The notes under the pieces: model-generated
What the model was told of the DNA's origin: nothing
Seen by the model: the letters and a program-made list of their open reading frames with translations, nothing else
The model's database searches: none
NCBI RefSeq assembly: GCF_020177375.1
Contig: NZ_JAIWHV010000001.1
Location: 558,001-622,000, forward strand
DNA: 64,000 bases
Reading direction: 5' to 3'
Source: Saliphagus infecundisoli
Lineage (GTDB): Archaea > Halobacteriota > Halobacteria > Halobacteriales > Natrialbaceae
Part shown: piece by piece, positions 8,867-58,992 of the stretch
Layout: the number at the start of each line of letters is the position of its first letter
How positions within the stretch are numbered: the first letter of the stretch is position 1
Made by a program: the position numbers and the translations under genes

Positions 8867-11755
8867 CTACCGCGCCCTCGCCGGCAGCCGGAGGTCGGCG
8901 GTGTCGTCCGCGGAGTCGTTCTCCCCGTCGCCGCTCTCGTTCCCGTCGTCCACGCTCACGCCGACCGGCTCGCCGTCGGCCGTCGTCTCCGCGGTCGGAT
9001 CGGGGACCGTCTCGCCGCCCGCCTCGAGTTCGACGTCGATCCCCTCGCCCTCGACGACGGCGGTCTCGGGAACGGCGGTCTCCCCGACGTAGGCCTGCTC
9101 GACGCTCCCGTTCTCGCCCGCGGTGCCGACGAAGACCTCGTAGTCGCCGGTCGCCTCGACGTTGCTGTTCGTGTAGCCGTCTTCGGTACCGAGTTCGTCG
9201 GTCGTCGCGTAGGGGACCGTCAGCTCGAACGACCCGTTCTCGACCTCCGCCTGCTGGGTGTAGGTGAAGTTTCGGCCCGGGCCGGTCTCGAGTTCGACCG
9301 TCGCGTAGGCTGTCGCGTTCGCCGGGGCGTCGTCGACCGATCCCGTAAGGGTCGCGCCCTCGACGCGCTCGAAGGTCTTCACCGAGGAGACGACGTGGGA
9401 CTCGATCCCGAAATTGGTGGGTTCGCCGGCCACACGGGCCGTGGCGTACCGGTCGTAGAACGAGCGGGTCTGGGCGTTCCACTCGCCCGAAAGCGGCGTG
9501 CCGTCCATGAGCCGGAGGTTGTCGAACCGTTCGGAGTCGAAGTACGTCGAGCCCTCGTAGGCCGTACTCCAGACGGCGTAGTCATTGTTCTCGTAGACCA
9601 GCCGGTAGCCTTCGAGGCCGCTCGCGTCATCGAGATACAGCGAGGCGAGCATCGTGTCGTAGTAGTCGTCGGGCGCCGCGAGCAACCGCTCCTCGCCGTC
9701 GACGGTGTACTCGCCCTGGCCGAAGTAGCTCCCGTAGCTCGGGCCCGCCCACCGGGTGATCGGGCCGAACTTCCCGCCGGCCATCTCGTCGTCGATCATC
9801 ACGTACCGCATCTCCTCGTCGCCCGCCTCCACGGACTCGAGTTCCTCCGTCGGTCGGTCGACGACCGGCTCGCCCGCGGAGATCCCGTCCAGAACCGCCT
9901 CGCCGCGGCGTTCGGACTGGGCGGTCAGGAAGGCGGCAGCCGAGCGCGCGTTCTGCTGGAAGGGGTTCGCGTGGGGGATCCGCTCGCCCTGGACGGTTAT
10001 CAGGTGGCCGTAGTCCCACCACGACATCACGCCGTAGGCGCCCTCCGGGTAGTCGAAGTCGCCGTCGGCGGGGCGGTCGTAGACGCCGTAGTACTCGAGT
10101 TCGTCGGCGTTGCCGGCGCCGCCGTAGTTGCCGGGCTCGGGGCTGTTGCCCTGGAGCCACTCGTTTGCGCCGTCCCAGACCATCGCGTCGGAGTGGGGGC
10201 CGGTGTGGTCGCCGGCCTCCCAGGCCGTCGTGTCCGCGAGCGGCAGCGCGATCGGCGCGAACAGCAGGACGACCACGAGCACGACAGCGATTGCCTGGTA
10301 GGTCTCGATCGACGAGAGGGTCTCCCGGGGGTCGGCGTCGAACTCGACGCGGACCAGGCGAGCGACGTCGGCGACGAGGACGGCGTTGCCCGCCGCGACG
10401 GGCAGGGCGAAGTAGTAGAAAAAGCGGACCTGGGTCATCGCCATGCTCGTCAGGAACGCGGCCCAGACGATCACGAGGGTGTACTCCGCGCGGTAGGGCC
10501 GTCCGGTCAGCGGCCGGGCGAGCAGGAGCGCCAGCCCCGCGAACATGGTGTAAAACGCCGTTCCGAACTCCTCGACCGATCGCTGGCGGAAGTTCTCGGG
10601 GGGCTGGGCCTCCGAGATCGTCAGCGTGCCCGTCGAGGGATCGATCGGGAGCAGCCGACTCGTGAGGTTGCTCACGAGCGTCTCGTAGACGTCGGGGAGG
10701 ACGACCGCGAGCGCGGCCAGCCCCGCGGCGGCCAGCCCCGCGACGGCGACCGGGTAGAGCCGCCGGTCGATCCCCCGACGGTCCCAGCCGCGGGCGAGAG
10801 CGGCGAGGAAGACCGATCCGGCGGCGACCAGCGCGGCGGTGATCGGCTGGAGGTAGCCGAAGCTCGTGATGCTCGTTCCGGGCTCTTCGAGCAGCGCCAG
10901 CGTCCCGACGGCGGCGGTCCCGAGCGCGACGACGCCGACGAAGGCGACGTGGTCGGGGGAGACGCCGCGAACGTAGTCCACGACGAGATGGATGCCGAAG
11001 AAGACCCCGACGATCCCGATCAGGACGATCCCGGAGGGCCAGACCCAGATGTAGCACGTCAGGGCGATCCCGGCGGCGACCGCGTAGAGGGTCGGGGTCC
11101 TGAGCCCCCGCCAGTCCCGATCCAGGAGCTGCTCGTAGACGGGCTTGTGGCGTTCGGCCACCCCGAGGGCGACCATCAGCGCGAGCACCGCGACGGCCAT
11201 GAACAGCACCTCGCCTGCGGTGTGGTCGAGCTGGCCGGCCGTCGTCCGCCGGAAGAACTCGCCCGAAAAGAGCGCGAGCAGGAGCACCGAGACGACGCCG
11301 CCGAGTCGTCCGCCCAGCCGGCGCCCGACGAAGTAGATCGGGACGGCCGTGAGCGCGGCCATCGCGGGAACGATCAGCAACGAGACGAGATACAGCGTCT
11401 CCGTCGAGGGATCGCCCAGCCCGGCGACCATCGCGACGGTGACGATGATCTGGTCGAACAGCGTCCCGAACTGGCCGACGTACCGGCCGGTGGGAAAGCC
11501 GGTCCAGACCTCGAACGGCATCGTATGCGGGTAGTGTTCGGCGGTCCACTGCACCGTCCGCCAGTGGTACCACGGATCGATCCCCGCGAGAGCGGGCTCG
11601 CCGTCGTTCGTCAGGAACCGTTCGTACGAGCGAGCCCGCGAGCGAAACATGAAGCCCATCGCGAGCGCGACGACGATCAGCGGATACTCCTCGAGCACGT
11701 CCACGATCCCCGCACGGACGGATCGCCCGTCCGTGCGGTCGGCGTCGCCACCCAT
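8867..11755 (-). CDS. aglB: Dolichyl-phosphooligosaccharide-protein glycotransferase AglB (archaeal STT3)
   Basis: A 962-residue membrane enzyme that transfers the lipid-linked glycan onto Asn of N-x-S/T sites on exported proteins, the central step of archaeal N-glycosylation. The N-terminal half has about 13 hydrophobic segments. A DxD-like acidic motif, AGIDPWYHWR (Asp60), lies in the first external loop. The catalytic signature SWWDYGH falls near residues 578-584, followed by a large external domain and a basic end. ATG 11755 is preferred over a GTG three codons upstream. It is divergent from an AglG-like glycosyltransferase and anchors the island running to 25.2 kb. Length matches haloarchaeal AglB. 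Confidence 0.96.
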   Translation of the reverse strand: MGGDADRTDGRSVRAGIVDVLEEYPLIVVALAMGFMFRSRARSYERFLTNDGEPALAGIDPWYHWRTVQWTAEHYPHTMPFEVWTGFPTGRYVGQFGTLFDQIIVTVAMVAGLGDPSTETLYLVSLLIVPAMAALTAVPIYFVGRRLGGRLGGVVSVLLLALFSGEFFRRTTAGQLDHTAGEVLFMAVAVLALMVALGVAERHKPVYEQLLDRDWRGLRTPTLYAVAAGIALTCYIWVWPSGIVLIGIVGVFFGIHLVVDYVRGVSPDHVAFVGVVALGTAAVGTLALLEEPGTSITSFGYLQPITAALVAAGSVFLAALARGWDRRGIDRRLYPVAVAGLAAAGLAALAVVLPDVYETLVSNLTSRLLPIDPSTGTLTISEAQPPENFRQRSVEEFGTAFYTMFAGLALLLARPLTGRPYRAEYTLVIVWAAFLTSMAMTQVRFFYYFALPVAAGNAVLVADVARLVRVEFDADPRETLSSIETYQAIAVVLVVVLLFAPIALPLADTTAWEAGDHTGPHSDAMVWDGANEWLQGNSPEPGNYGGAGNADELEYYGVYDRPADGDFDYPEGAYGVMSWWDYGHLITVQGERIPHANPFQQNARSAAAFLTAQSERRGEAVLDGISAGEPVVDRPTEELESVEAGDEEMRYVMIDDEMAGGKFGPITRWAGPSYGSYFGQGEYTVDGEERLLAAPDDYYDTMLASLYLDDASGLEGYRLVYENNDYAVWSTAYEGSTYFDSERFDNLRLMDGTPLSGEWNAQTRSFYDRYATARVAGEPTNFGIESHVVSSVKTFERVEGATLTGSVDDAPANATAYATVELETGPGRNFTYTQQAEVENGSFELTVPYATTDELGTEDGYTNSNVEATGDYEVFVGTAGENGSVEQAYVGETAVPETAVVEGEGIDVELEAGGETVPDPTAETTADGEPVGVSVDDGNESGDGENDSADDTADLRLPARAR

Positions 11756-11841
11756 TGGGGCCACACAGCCCCACGCCGAGAATAAGTCTTCCCATACGCC
11801 GACGGAAACGCTTATTCCTGCCCTCTGGCAATCGCCAGTCG
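11756..11841. promoter_or_regulatory. Divergent aglB / glycosyltransferase promoter region
   Basis: The 86-base spacer carries CTTATTC in each direction: at about 11779-11788 read on the minus strand (for aglB) and at 11810-11817 on the plus strand (for the GT2 gene). Each lies about 25-30 bases before its start codon, as expected for haloarchaeal TATA boxes with short or no leaders. This suggests coordinated expression from one small region. Confidence 0.5.
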
Positions 11842-37857: not shown

Positions 37858-39192
37858 TCAGAGCACGACGAGAAGCGAGGCGAGCCCGCCCCCGATCAGG
37901 AGGACGGCGCTGTAGGCCGCGACCCGGTTTCGAAACCGGGTGTTCGAGGACGTCGCCGTGAGCACCGCCTTGACGACGATGCTCGAGACCGTCGCGAGCA
38001 GGATCGCGACCGTGGCCTCCGGCGCGGCGAGCTGGCCCCCGCGGTAGAGGACGACCGCGGACGTCGTCGCGCCGGCACTGGAGACGAGCCCGCTCGCCAC
38101 CGCGGTCGCGTAGAAGCCGAGCGTGCCGAACCAGACCTCGGCGACCGAGCCGAAGACGAGGACGACCAGGAAGACGGCGCCGAACGCGAGGGCGTTCTTC
38201 AGCGAGAAGGGGCTCTCGAGGTCCATCGGGGTCGACTCCGACCAGTCGGCGGTCACCCCCGCGATCAGCACGGAGAGGACGATGACCGCTCCCAGCGGAA
38301 CGATCGCCTCGACGAGCGGCGAGACGCCACTGCCGACGGTGAAGGCGACGGCGATCGCCAGGTTGCGCACGGCCATCGCGGCGTCGGCGAGCAGGATCGC
38401 GGCGACGGCGTAGGAGGCGGCCTCCGAGCGCTGGTTGACGTGATCGAGCATCGTCCCCACGACGGCAGTCGAGGACGCGAGCCCGCCGAAGAAGCCGGTG
38501 ACGGCGATCCCTCGGCCGCCGTAGGTCGAGACGATCGCGTAGTTGACGATCCCGATGCCGGCGACGGCGACGACCATCAGCCAGATCACCTGGGGCTCGA
38601 GCTCGATCGTGGTGACGCCGAGGTCGAGGGGGTACGTCGAGGGCAACAGCGGGTAGACGACGAACGCGAGGATCGCGAACTCCGTCGTCGAGCGCATCTC
38701 CTGGCGGGTGAGTCCCCACGCGAACTCGTGGAGCTCGCGTTTCAAAACGAGCAACAGCGAGGAGAGGACGGCGACGGTCACTCCCTCGATGACGAAGTCG
38801 GCGGCGACCAGGGCGCCGACGCCGTAGGCGACGAGCATCGAGACCGAGGTCGTAAGCGAGAGGCCGCTTCCCTCGTCGTCGTCCAACAGCCCCTGGACCG
38901 CCAGCAGGATTCCCTGGACGATGACCAACAGCCCTCCGAGAAGGAGCAGGCTCTCGCCGGCGTCGGCCTCGAGGACGAGCACCATGAACACCGCTCCCAG
39001 TAAGCTGATCAGCGAGAACGTCCGGATCCCCGCGGACTTCTGGGACCACTCGCGCTCGAGCCCCAGGAACATCCCCAGGGCACCCGCCAGCGCGATCCTG
39101 ACGACGGACTCCTCCAGGGGAGCTTCCGCGATCTGCAAGACGACGGCGGGGACGGCCTCGTTCACCCCACGACGTAGCAGCGTGGGGGTCAT
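37858..39192 (-). CDS. MgtC/DUF4010 family membrane protein
   Basis: A 444-residue integral membrane protein of about 13 helices. The N-terminal MgtC/SapB-like part has ALAGALGMFLGLEREWSQKSAGIRTFSLISLLGAVFMVL. The C-terminal part, from about residue 210, fits DUF4010 (GFFGGLASSTAVVGTMLDH ... FGTLGFYATAVASGLVSSAGATTSAVVLY). MgtC proteins are linked to magnesium homeostasis and membrane potential in bacteria, but the role of the archaeal fusion is unknown. It is 38 bases from the aminotransferase gene on the same strand. Confidence 0.9.
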   Translation of the reverse strand: MTPTLLRRGVNEAVPAVVLQIAEAPLEESVVRIALAGALGMFLGLEREWSQKSAGIRTFSLISLLGAVFMVLVLEADAGESLLLLGGLLVIVQGILLAVQGLLDDDEGSGLSLTTSVSMLVAYGVGALVAADFVIEGVTVAVLSSLLLVLKRELHEFAWGLTRQEMRSTTEFAILAFVVYPLLPSTYPLDLGVTTIELEPQVIWLMVVAVAGIGIVNYAIVSTYGGRGIAVTGFFGGLASSTAVVGTMLDHVNQRSEAASYAVAAILLADAAMAVRNLAIAVAFTVGSGVSPLVEAIVPLGAVIVLSVLIAGVTADWSESTPMDLESPFSLKNALAFGAVFLVVLVFGSVAEVWFGTLGFYATAVASGLVSSAGATTSAVVLYRGGQLAAPEATVAILLATVSSIVVKAVLTATSSNTRFRNRVAAYSAVLLIGGGLASLLVVL

Positions 39193-39249: not shown

Positions 39250-39549
39250 CTACACCTCGACGTACTGGCCCTCCCACTCCCGGCGGGCCTCGATCTCTCG
39301 ACGTCCCCGACGGGTGAGCGTGTAGACGTTGGTCCGGCGGTCCTTCTGGCCTTTCTCGACCAGCCCCTTGTCGACGACGGTGTCCAAGTTGGGGTAGAGC
39401 CGCCCGTGGTGGATCTCGCTCTCGTAGTACTTCTCGAGTTCCTCCTTGATCGCCAGCCCGTGTGGCTCCCCTTCGCCCGCGATCACGTACAGCAGGTCAC
39501 GCTGGAATCCTGTCAGGTCGTACATTGGGTAGGTCTCGTTCACACTCAT
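39250..39549 (-). CDS. PadR family transcriptional regulator
   Basis: A 99-residue winged-helix protein. LTGFQRDLLYVIAGEGEPHGLAIKEELEKYYESEIHHGRLYPNLDTVVDKGLVEKGQKDRRTNVYTLTRRGRREI shows the full PadR fold; only the C-terminal dimer helix of longer PadR proteins is short. Such proteins are usually repressors, but the ligand is unknown. ATG 39549 lies about 10-20 bases from a TATA-like box, suggesting a leaderless transcript; an ATG at 39525 is an alternative. Haloarchaeal genomes carry many copies of this minimal PadR type. Confidence 0.9.
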   Translation of the reverse strand: MSVNETYPMYDLTGFQRDLLYVIAGEGEPHGLAIKEELEKYYESEIHHGRLYPNLDTVVDKGLVEKGQKDRRTNVYTLTRRGRREIEARREWEGQYVEV

Positions 39550-40625: not shown

Positions 40626-41075
40626 TTACTCGTCGGAGTCGTTGCCGAGGCCGGTGTCGTTGTCCTCGGTATCGTTCATGCCGGAGTCGTTGCCGAGGCC
40701 GGTGTCGTTGTCCTCGGTATCGTTCATGCCGGAGTCGTTGCCGAGACCGGTGTCGTTGTCCTCGGTGTCGTTCATACCGGTGTCGTTGTCCTCGGTGTCG
40801 TTCATACCGGTGTCGTTCTCGTCATCGCCGAGACCGGTGTCGTTGTCCTCGGTGTCGTTCATACCGGTGTCGTTGTCCTCGCCCATCCCGGTATCGTTCT
40901 CCTCTTCGGTCTCGGTTTCCTCCTCCGTTTCGGTCTCCTCTTCGGTCTCGTTTTCGGTGTCGTTTCCGTTGCCGTTGCCGTTACCACCGCCGTCGCTACA
41001 GCCCGCGAGGGTCAGCGCACCGACGGTACCTGCGACGGTCACGAACCTGCGTCGACTGAATCGGTCTTCGGTCAT
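40626..41075 (-). CDS. TAT lipoprotein composed of N-glycosylation-sequon repeats
   Basis: A 149-residue protein. The first 27 residues are a TAT lipoprotein signal: SRRRFVTVAGTVGALTLAGC (twin Arg, lipobox LAGC). The rest has no hydrophobic core and consists of Asn, Asp, Thr, Glu and Gly. I count 18 Asn-X-Thr/Ser sites (Asn-Asp-Thr, Asn-Asp-Ser and Asn-Glu-Thr) in about 120 residues, with units such as GNDSGMNDTEDNDTGL repeated. After lipid anchoring it would be a flexible, acidic, potentially heavily glycosylated rod on the cell surface. ATG 41075 starts the signal. No domain recognised. It lies 32 kb from aglB. Confidence 0.8.
   Translation of the reverse strand: MTEDRFSRRRFVTVAGTVGALTLAGCSDGGGNGNGNGNDTENETEEETETEEETETEEENDTGMGEDNDTGMNDTEDNDTGLGDDENDTGMNDTEDNDTGMNDTEDNDTGLGNDSGMNDTEDNDTGLGNDSGMNDTEDNDTGLGNDSDE
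40633..40870 (-). repeat. 48-bp tandem repeat (with 30-bp partial units) inside the lipoprotein gene
   Basis: Three near-identical 48-base units run from about 40633 to 40776, each coding 16 residues (GNDSGMNDTEDNDTGL type), followed by shorter 27-30-base units to 40863. Differences are mainly synonymous third-base changes such as gtatcg/gtgtcg and gaggcc/gagacc. All units are multiples of three, so changes in copy number keep the reading frame and could vary glycan acceptor number between strains. Confidence 0.85.
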
Positions 41076-41414: not shown

Positions 41415-42140
41415 ATGAAGATCCGGGGCGAACGCGAGTGCACCGACTGTGGCACCCGCTGGTCGTACTACGAGACCGGCAGCGTCGGCTGTCCGGCCTG
41501 TAGCAGCCTCCGGAGCGTCGGCACGGGCGAGCGGACCGAACACACCGACCTCGACGCCGCCCTCGAGCTGACCGAGGTCCGGGGGCTGATCGACGACGCC
41601 CCCCTCGAGGAGGTCGCCGAGCGCGCGGCCGAGGAGGCCCGATCCTACGTCAGACGCCGGGGGTTCGTCCGTGGCGGGGACCTGATCGATCTCGACGAGT
41701 CGTATCTCGCGGCCGCCGAGTTGCGCTACGTCGCCGACGTCCTCGCCCGGACTCCCTCCCACGAGCGGACCGACGAGGGGGAGCTGTACTTCGTCTCGCT
41801 CCTCCGGGACGCCGACGGCGGCGAGCGCCCGCCCGTCGCGGAGGTTCCCCACGGCCTCGCGATGGCCCGCGGGCTCGCCTACGCCGAGGCCGTCCGGGAG
41901 TATCGTCGGGACGTCCGGAGTTGGCTCGAGGGCCGCGAGCTCGCCCCCGACGAACGCGGCGCCCTCGACTCGCTCGGCGAGCACGTCACCCGGATCCGGA
42001 TGCTCGACGGCGACGTCTCCCCGCAGATTGCGGAACGGCTCGTGGAGACGGCCCGGGACCTGGGGAGAGCACTCCGGGACGGCGACGAGGTCGCGCTCGC
42101 GCGCGCAGAAGACCGTCTCGAGGCGCTCGACGACGTTTAG
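41415..42140 (+). CDS. Zinc-ribbon protein, haloarchaeal (possibly DUF7117)
   Basis: A 241-residue protein. The N-terminal ~25 residues form a zinc ribbon, RECTDCGTRWSYYE ... GCPACSSL (two CxxC pairs). The remainder is all-helical and acidic (LEEVAERAAEEARSYVRRRGFVRGGDLIDLDESYLAAAELRYVADVL). From memory this matches a haloarchaeal family of TFIIB-like-ribbon proteins without known function (DUF7117). It ends in a four-base overlap with folD on the opposite strand (convergent). Confidence 0.72.
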   Translation: MKIRGERECTDCGTRWSYYETGSVGCPACSSLRSVGTGERTEHTDLDAALELTEVRGLIDDAPLEEVAERAAEEARSYVRRRGFVRGGDLIDLDESYLAAAELRYVADVLARTPSHERTDEGELYFVSLLRDADGGERPPVAEVPHGLAMARGLAYAEAVREYRRDVRSWLEGRELAPDERGALDSLGEHVTRIRMLDGDVSPQIAERLVETARDLGRALRDGDEVALARAEDRLEALDDV

Positions 42141-43012
42141 GGGAGGGAGACATCGGTCCCCGACTGGATGCTCGCGGCCTTGACGGTGTTGTAGAGGAGC
42201 ATCGCGCGGGTCATCGGGCCGACGCCGCCGGGGACGGGCGTGATGGCACCCGCCGTCTCGCGGGCGCTCTCGAAGGCGACGTCGCCGACGGCCTCGCCGT
42301 CGACGTGATTGTAGCCGACGTCGATCACCGTCGCCCCCTCGGCAAGCATCGAGCCGTCGATCAGTTCGGGGACGCCCGCGGCGGCGACGACGATGTCGGC
42401 TCCACGGGTCTTTTCGGCGAGGTCGTCGGTCCGGGAGTGACAGACGGTGACGGTGGCGTTGCCGTCGGGCGCCTTCCGCAAGAGGAGGTTCGCCAGGGGC
42501 TTGCCGACGAGGTTCGAGCGCCCGACGACGACGGCGTCGGCGCCCTCGGTCTCGACGCCGGCGGCGTCCAGCAACTTCTGGACGCCGTGGGGGGTACAGG
42601 GCCGATAGCGCGGGTCGCCCCGGACGAGCCGGCCGACGTTTTCGGGATGGAAACCGTCGACGTCCTTCAGGGGAGTGACGCTGCGGAGCGCGCGCTCGGA
42701 ATCCACCTGGTCGGGGAGGGGCGTCTGGACCAGGACCCCGTGGACGTCCGCGCGCTCGTTGAGGTCGGCGACGACGGCCATCAGCTCCTCGGTGTCGGCT
42801 CCCGAATCGACGTCGCGATGGAAGTCCTCGATGCCGACCTCTCGGCAGTCCTCGCGTTTCATCGAGACGTAGGTCTCGCTCGCGGGGTCGTCGCTCATCA
42901 ACACCGTCGCCAGCCCCGGCTGGACGCCCGCGTCCGCCAGCTCTTCGATCGACTCGGCTAACTCCTCCCGGAGGGAGGCGGCGACCGCGTCGCCGTCGAT
43001 GATCTCGGTCAT
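42137..43012 (-). CDS. folD: Methylenetetrahydrofolate dehydrogenase / methenyltetrahydrofolate cyclohydrolase
   Basis: A 291-residue bifunctional enzyme that converts methylene-THF to formyl-THF in one-carbon metabolism. Conserved blocks: PGLATVLMSDDPASETYVSMKREDC (catalytic Tyr-x3-Lys in YVSMK), HGVLVQTPLPDQVD, the PCTPHGVQKLLD substrate loop, VVVGRSNLVGKPLANLLL (NADP binding), ATVTVCHSRTDDL and PVPGGVGPMTRAMLLYNTV. ATG 43012 matches the family start. It is 93 bases from the 43106 gene on the same strand, with glyA further upstream, so the two folate-linked genes are near each other. Confidence 0.97.
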   Translation of the reverse strand: MTEIIDGDAVAASLREELAESIEELADAGVQPGLATVLMSDDPASETYVSMKREDCREVGIEDFHRDVDSGADTEELMAVVADLNERADVHGVLVQTPLPDQVDSERALRSVTPLKDVDGFHPENVGRLVRGDPRYRPCTPHGVQKLLDAAGVETEGADAVVVGRSNLVGKPLANLLLRKAPDGNATVTVCHSRTDDLAEKTRGADIVVAAAGVPELIDGSMLAEGATVIDVGYNHVDGEAVGDVAFESARETAGAITPVPGGVGPMTRAMLLYNTVKAASIQSGTDVSLP

Positions 43013-43105
43013 GGTCGAGAGGGCGACGGCGACACCCTTCAAACCTCGGATCCGTGCCTATCTCGCCTGGCTACCCGGGAATTGTATCCACGAACGTGGG
43101 TATCG

Positions 43106-58230: not shown

Positions 58231-58992
58231 TCAGTTCCCGCCCGTCGCCGCACCCGCCGACTCGTTGTCTCCCGTGGAGCCGTTCGCGGCACCCTCCTCG
58301 CCCGCGGAGTCGTTGCCTTCCGTGGTCCCGTTTGCGGTCGGCACGTCGGCTCCCGCCGACTCGTTGCCTTCGGTCGTCCCGTCGTCTGCGGTCGCGTTGC
58401 CGACGGTCGTTTCGTTATCGCCGGTCGCGTTACCTTCCGTCGAACCGCTCCCGCCCGCTCCCGCCGACTCGTTCGCGGCCGGTCCTCCCGTGGCTCCTGT
58501 GGCCTGCTGGCTGATCTCCACGAACCGCCCGCCGGGGAGCAGGCCGTCCATTTCGCCGGCGTTCAGCGCCTCCCGGATCACTGCCGGATCGCCGTCGATC
58601 AGGAGCACTCCCGCCTGAACGATCGTCTCCTCGACGGTCAGCCCGTCCGTGTCGGCGGCGTATTCCTCTACGGCCTCGACCTCCTCGGTGACGAGCTCGA
58701 GTTGGCGCTGGCGGAGTTCGCGCTGGGCTTCCATCTGGCTGGTCTCGTTGTTCTCGATGCGTCCCCTGAGCTCCTCCTGGATCGCCCGGACCTCCTCCTG
58801 GTCGGGCTCGACGAACGCGGTCACCGCCGACTCGGGAACGTCGGCGTCCTCGACCTCCGGCGGCGGTTCCGGGGTGTCGCCGGTGTCGTCGGTGCCGTCG
58901 CCGCCCGAAAGCGCCGAACAGCCCGCGAGCGCGACCGCGGCGCCCGCCCCCGCGAGCCGCAGAACCCGTCGTCGGTTGTGGTCCTCGCTCAT
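58231..58992 (-). CDS. TAT lipoprotein with sequon-rich C-terminal tail
   Basis: A 253-residue protein. Residues 1-25 are a TAT lipoprotein signal (NRRRVLRLAGAGAAVALAGC). An acidic linker is followed by a helical part at ~50-165 (VEPDQEEVRAIQEELRGRIENNETSQMEAQRELRQRQLELV). The last ~85 residues are Gly/Ala/Thr/Asn-rich, with nine Asn-X-Ser/Thr sites (ANES, GNAT, DNET, GNAT, GNES, ANGT, GNDS, ANGS, DNES), plus one more in the helical part. A tail of this kind would be extended and can be N- and O-glycosylated. Function unknown. Confidence 0.8.
   Translation of the reverse strand: MSEDHNRRRVLRLAGAGAAVALAGCSALSGGDGTDDTGDTPEPPPEVEDADVPESAVTAFVEPDQEEVRAIQEELRGRIENNETSQMEAQRELRQRQLELVTEEVEAVEEYAADTDGLTVEETIVQAGVLLIDGDPAVIREALNAGEMDGLLPGGRFVEISQQATGATGGPAANESAGAGGSGSTEGNATGDNETTVGNATADDGTTEGNESAGADVPTANGTTEGNDSAGEEGAANGSTGDNESAGAATGGN

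Follow-up and report, generated by a model that had tools for sequence, protein, structure and literature searches.

The window analyzed here, a 64,000-nucleotide stretch of the Saliphagus infecundisoli genome, encodes a small domain-less lipoprotein that is probably exported by Tat and anchored through Cys26, and whose disordered acidic chain probably serves as a dense N-glycan acceptor array for AglB, forming a tether or brush of glycans that is hydrated and polyanionic. As judged from locus and sequence, the gene is no isolated novelty but codes for an orthologous lipoprotein in its domain-less form.

The lipoprotein gene and its repeat array

The reading frame is intact, running on the minus strand from an ATG at 41075 to a TAA stop at 40626-40628 and specifying a product of 149 amino acids (MTEDRFSRRRFVTVAGTVGALTLAGC). 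The strand and frame proposed in the earlier note agree with start, stop, Tat signal, lipobox, and codon score, which was best for this minus frame (80.9, versus 20.2 for the best antisense frame). A longer variant of the ORF, which adds 32 residues ahead of the Tat motif, is unlikely. Residues 7-26 contain the SRRRFV...LTLAGC pattern of a Tat lipoprotein, (nearly) invariant among homologs by sequence and alignment, with M1, S7, R8, R9, F11, V12, L23, A24, G25, and C26 invariant in the alignment of six homologs. The features of the gene are listed below together with AglB, which the earlier note had correctly placed on the same genome piece.

40626..41075, minus strand: CDS of the 149-aa, domain-less, sequon-tract Tat lipoprotein (ORF, sequon shuffles, codon score)
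41001..41075, minus strand: Tat signal peptide, residues 1-25, MTEDRFSRRRFVTVAGTVGALTLAG, with SRRRFV at 41040-41057 (sequence, homolog alignment)
40998..41000, minus strand: lipobox cysteine Cys26 of LAGC, predicted lipid anchor (sequence, alignment)
40899..40997, minus strand: linker of Gly/Asn and Glu/Thr, residues 27-59, two sequons (sequence)
40629..40898, minus strand: sequon array, residues 60-149, 16 sequons, commonest spacing 5 residues (sequence)
40634..40875, minus strand: 48-bp tandem repeat, 5.2 copies (Tandem Repeats Finder)
8867..11764, minus strand: AglB oligosaccharyltransferase, 965 aa, WWDYG (only STT3 match of this genome)

The mature part, counted from Cys26, comprises 124 residues, including 48 Asp/Glu, no Lys or Arg, no Pro, and 23 Ser+Thr. 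It contains exactly the 18 N-X-S/T sequons that had been claimed (14 NDT, three NDS, and one NET), against 3.8 +/- 1.6 expected, with a maximum of 11, when the mature part was shuffled 10,000 times at constant composition. The description of nearly every residue as belonging to sequon units was overstated: the triplets account for 54 of the 124 residues, and the remainder consists of D/E, G, and M/L spacers and a TEEETETEEE linker. The reported 48-base period with shorter in-frame units was recovered by Tandem Repeats Finder, with 80% matches over the array and sub-periods of 15, 18, and 30 bp, all multiples of three. The array is young, its 18 sequons being encoded by only four different 9-mers; in L108, eight sequons are encoded by eight, and array age by this measure (9-mer diversity per sequon) differs between sequon-only lipoproteins. 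A Pfam search of the protein at E 0.1 returned neither a domain nor a repeat family.

A second Tat lipoprotein of 253 aa is encoded in the window at 58231-58992 on the minus strand; it has a sequon-rich C-terminal tail (NESAG, NATGDNETTVGNATA, NGTTEGNDSAG) with a 48-bp repeat of its own. The C-terminus of AglB itself, encoded at 8867-8980 on the minus strand, is an acidic tail with sequons (NESGDGENDSADD).

A conserved slot with a modular lipoprotein

The gene occupies a slot in a conserved gene order, FolD / zinc-ribbon gene / lipoprotein / PadR / MgtC-like, defined in the window by the following neighbors.

37858..39192, minus strand: MgtC/SapB-like membrane protein gene, conserved flank (synteny)
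39250..39549, minus strand: PadR-family regulator on the far side of the slot, 83-88% identical at syntenic loci (PadR by NCBIfam)
41415..42140, plus strand: zinc-ribbon protein gene, divergent neighbor and slot marker, in 123 of 125 family genomes (synteny)
42137..43042, minus strand: FolD gene, conserved flank (NCBIfam E 9e-149; synteny)

A lipoprotein fills the slot in 48 of the 74 genomes sampled, and the slot is empty in the other 26. In most slot lipoproteins, a domain of the carboxypeptidase-regulatory-like type (PF13620, which matched the G009 ortholog at E 6e-11) is accompanied by disordered tracts ahead of it, within a loop, and at the tail. Those of G017 (L218) and G101 (L261) instead have, between tracts of these kinds and following the same signal peptide, a domain that reads as cupredoxin-like; judged from sequence, this appears to be a domain swap. 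The window protein shares with the PF13620 proteins the locus, a similar signal peptide, and sequon units, which in those proteins lie in linker, loop, and tail, but it has no PF13620-like domain. The domain is likewise absent from the slot lipoproteins of genus g25 (L103, L166, L167). The repeat unit differs wholly between these syntenic orthologs and the window protein, and sequons dominate both. The flank tree is compatible with the domain-less form having arisen once, although its deep forks are weak. Because it shares the slot with domain-bearing lipoproteins, the window protein is taken as the domain-less member of an orthologous modular lipoprotein. The earlier view of a purpose-built glycan carrier therefore survives in part: an acceptor role is likely, given the direction bias described below and the sequons kept during repeat remodeling, but the gene does not stand alone.

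Searching named genomes with the window protein alone as query gave no relatives, and the domain-less forms, once aligned, varied too much for the alignment to serve as a query. A paralog of 178 aa with 19 sequons is encoded on a different contig of the same genome, with the unit DNESGM where the window copy has NDTGM. Small Tat lipoproteins of the sequon-only type were also found in related genera, as well as in another family of the order. Across 15 domain-less relatives, sequons take in 175 of the 195 Asn and 175 of the 208 Ser/Thr, an acidic residue (Glu or Asp) occupies X in 169 of these 175 sequons, and the mature part is devoid of Lys, Arg, and His in every case. Most relatives have Glu in place of the Asp at X and retain the Asn and Ser/Thr. 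Repeat number varies between species, from 9 to 14 sequons in one family at a conserved locus, as anticipated from the in-frame repeat. PadR was rejected as a functional partner of the domain-less lipoproteins: paralogs lie near three of the families, but each of 14 genomes searched has 7-32 PadR copies. In four species, one family of sequon-only lipoproteins has, within 3 kb, a gene for a secreted protein that contains roughly 26-32 sequons and repeats resembling NVTIENATIEEL (L101:967-2016, L105:2013-3155, L106:1000-2112, L109:8052-9302).

Sequon direction and the alternation with poly-acid segments

Since shuffling a single repetitive protein proves little, sequon direction was tested. A DNA pattern for three N-[DE]-[ST] units matched 55 times in the whole genome, and among the other tract ORFs that were read, 20 of 20 had an export signal and 17 of 20 a lipobox. 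The plain backward pattern (0 matches) is not codon-meaningful, so a reversed-codon pattern was used instead; it matched once in the genome, a comparison that is not strict as its first codon was fixed as ACC. To avoid selection bias, an unbiased sample of 800 kb of the genome, with 674 genes called by codon bias, was also used. In this sample, the ratio of N-x-[ST] to [ST]-x-N was 129:45 in 20 lipoproteins and 60:23 in single-membrane-span or secreted proteins, versus 283:338 in cytosolic proteins (Fisher 2e-11 for lipoproteins against cytosolic proteins), and N[DE][ST] against its reverse stood at 80:11 in lipoproteins and 42:37 in cytosolic proteins. As the bias is seen in exported and not in cytosolic proteins, the sequon direction is favored only where AglB can act.

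Three segments of the slot lipoproteins consist of N-[DE]-[ST] units in 30 genomes (7-22 sequons) and of Asp/Glu runs in 14 (0-2 sequons), with 4 genomes intermediate. The two states can part close relatives: genus g3 is split between G008, with 15 sequons, and G007, with none, and genus g24 contains both. The state of the slot matches that of the whole genome, revealing an unexpected genome-wide alternation between sequon and poly-acid. The triple pattern has 0-8 matches in poly-acid genomes versus 12-55 in sequon-state genomes, and, with the slot locus removed, 0-8 versus 10-47. Within tracts, Asn tracks Ser/Thr content (Spearman 0.68; 0.79 over 19 genus means); the two rise and fall together, which fits their maintenance as a pair, but Gly tracks Asn too (0.74), so the covariation is not conclusive alone. 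The best flank tree implies at least eight state changes; good branch support is available for only three contrasts, which all agree (sign test p 0.25). A comparison of 200 kb each from one poly-acid and one sequon genome yielded three lipoproteins apiece, too few to be informative. In genus g25, genome-wide tract counts are 1-3 or 28-36, setting G111, G114, and G118 against G112, G113, and G115.

In named genomes, 30 such loci were located, 29 of which yielded a readable ortholog. Sequon counts are 4-21 in the orthologs from Natrinema, Haloterrigena, Halopiger, and Halovivax, compared with 0-1 in those from Natronorubrum, Natronococcus, Natronolimnohabitans, Natrarchaeobius, Natronoglomus, Natrialba swarupiae, and Halobiforma nitratireducens; the Halobiforma haloterrestris ortholog has two. 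The named poly-acid species are mostly soda-lake alkaliphiles. With the split genus Halobiforma excluded, and with pH labels drawn mainly from names and general knowledge, the genera divide 4:0 versus 0:6 (Fisher 0.005). These labels are only approximate, because the emended Haloterrigena/Natrinema group is described as alkaliphilic or neutrophilic (PMC8530250). Natronoglomus mannanivorans, with an optimum at pH 9-9.2, has Halovivax and Saliphagus as its closest relatives by 16S rRNA (PMC10963439).

The absence of sequons does not reflect loss of the enzyme, since an STT3 match is present in every poly-acid genome compared. Some apparent absences of STT3 were profile misses, recovered with an AglB protein query (G030, G177, G298, G337, and a fragment in G116). 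In G068 (100% complete, 8 contigs; L179, L243), neither profile nor protein search found AglB/STT3, and this genome retains 21 tract matches and a slot protein with 14 sequons. The G068 result may reflect a recent loss or an assembly gap, or it may be a sign that the genome can do without the sequons. The idea that missing tracts result from loss of AglB was thus rejected, both on the poly-acid genomes that keep STT3 and on G068. Tentatively, Natrialbaceae could have two interchangeable builds of disordered lipoprotein parts, arrays of N-glycan sites and poly-Asp/Glu, between which lineages switch across the surface proteome, with AglB kept and alkaliphily driving sequon loss through Asn instability at high pH or a need for glycan-independent charge.

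A proposed glycosylated tether, rival readings, and significance

Tat would export the window lipoprotein, as its signal predicts, and the lipid on Cys26 of the lipobox would then anchor it in the membrane. Many of its Asn would be glycosylated by AglB; the sites and the selection on them are seen in the sequence, and occupancy is predicted from them. The product could be a hydrated polyanionic tether or brush running from the membrane to the S-layer, beneath or through it, built here from N-glycosylated repeats and, in alkaliphiles, possibly from acidic side chains.

In having an excess of N-X-S/T sites, an export signal, and a genomic oligosaccharyltransferase, the protein resembles the AglB-dependent N-glycoproteins of Haloferax volcanii (the S-layer glycoprotein, HVO_2160, and lipobox proteins such as HVO_1624), with glycan attachment itself predicted. 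The Haloferax set, with 1-19 confirmed sites per protein, extends from secreted forms to multi-pass membrane proteins, HVO_2160 (19) being the largest Haloferax protein, and it includes Tat lipobox proteins, as the window protein is; lipobox proteins of Haloferax are N-glycosylated (PMC8241124). Unlike that set, the window protein has 18 predicted sites in 124 residues and no domain. N274 and N279 of the Haloferax S-layer protein, five residues apart, are both occupied (PMC8241124), and occupancy of neighboring sites in the window array is plausible because this spacing is also the commonest here. The concern that Asp at X lowers use by AglB is weakened, since little X preference except exclusion of Pro has been reported for archaeal sites (PMC8342417). 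The mature chain lacks Lys and Arg and is therefore invisible to trypsin proteomics, and proteins below 13 kDa are poorly detected (PMC7305310); these two points may explain why nothing of this kind appeared in one glycoproteomics study. Eukaryotic mucins and mannoprotein stalks are likewise tandem-repeat, disordered, acceptor-dense surface stalks, by analogy only and without homology. A mucin-like identity was rejected, as the Pro/Thr/Ser-rich O-glycosylation repeat of mucins is missing: the acceptor here is Asn and the chain is strongly acidic.

The sequons could instead be incidental and unused, with NDT units of an acidic disordered linker arising from halophilic composition and repeat slippage. 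Orthologs place pure D/E runs in the same segments, X is almost always acidic even though sequon recognition does not require it, and the AglB-less G068 retains tracts. We nevertheless consider this explanation unlikely, because the direction bias is confined to exported proteins, the tract genes read are exported without exception, Asn and Ser/Thr appear and vanish jointly, and domain-less orthologs rebuilt their spacers while the sequons stayed.

The absent domain, the young and homogeneous array, and the empty slots elsewhere could also describe a decaying remnant, a leftover linker that grows by neutral slippage after domain loss. This is quite improbable given an intact frame with conserved Tat and lipobox motifs, a second genus (L103, L166, L167) that keeps the domain-less form with a different repeat, and intact sequons in other domain-less families and in the second copy in this genome. 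Regularly spaced Asp in D-N-D-T-G-M and the strong acidity of the chain would suit a repeat that binds calcium or magnesium, with D-N-D-T as a ligand loop and not a sequon; such a repeat is very improbable, as there was no Pfam repeat family at E 0.1, and the change from Asp to Glu at X in most relatives leaves N and S/T unchanged. The calcium-binding acidic repeats RTX and thrombospondin type 3 were rejected on the same profile search.

The glycosylated tether thus remains the preferred reading, with the qualification that glycans are not indispensable to the segment: haloalkaliphilic Natrialbaceae have orthologous segments at the same positions in which D/E runs with 0-2 sequons replace the N-[DE]-[ST] units, and in these poly-acid orthologs the segments function without sequons. 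Such replacement in lineages giving up sequons, mostly alkaliphiles, suggests that the shared function is negative charge and hydration. Haloarchaeal N-glycans are known to contain uronic acids or sulfate (PMC2952790), and because of this acidity glycan arrays and poly-Asp/Glu would both be possible sources of charge.

The window protein points to a class of archaeal lipoproteins, predicted to be densely N-glycosylated, that is invisible to routine trypsin proteomics. Orthologs at one locus with either sequons or poly-acid offer a natural experiment on whether the role of archaeal N-glycans in disordered surface segments is one of charge and hydration or is sugar-specific. If the genome-wide switch does follow pH, N-glycan density would be a measurable trait of adaptation.
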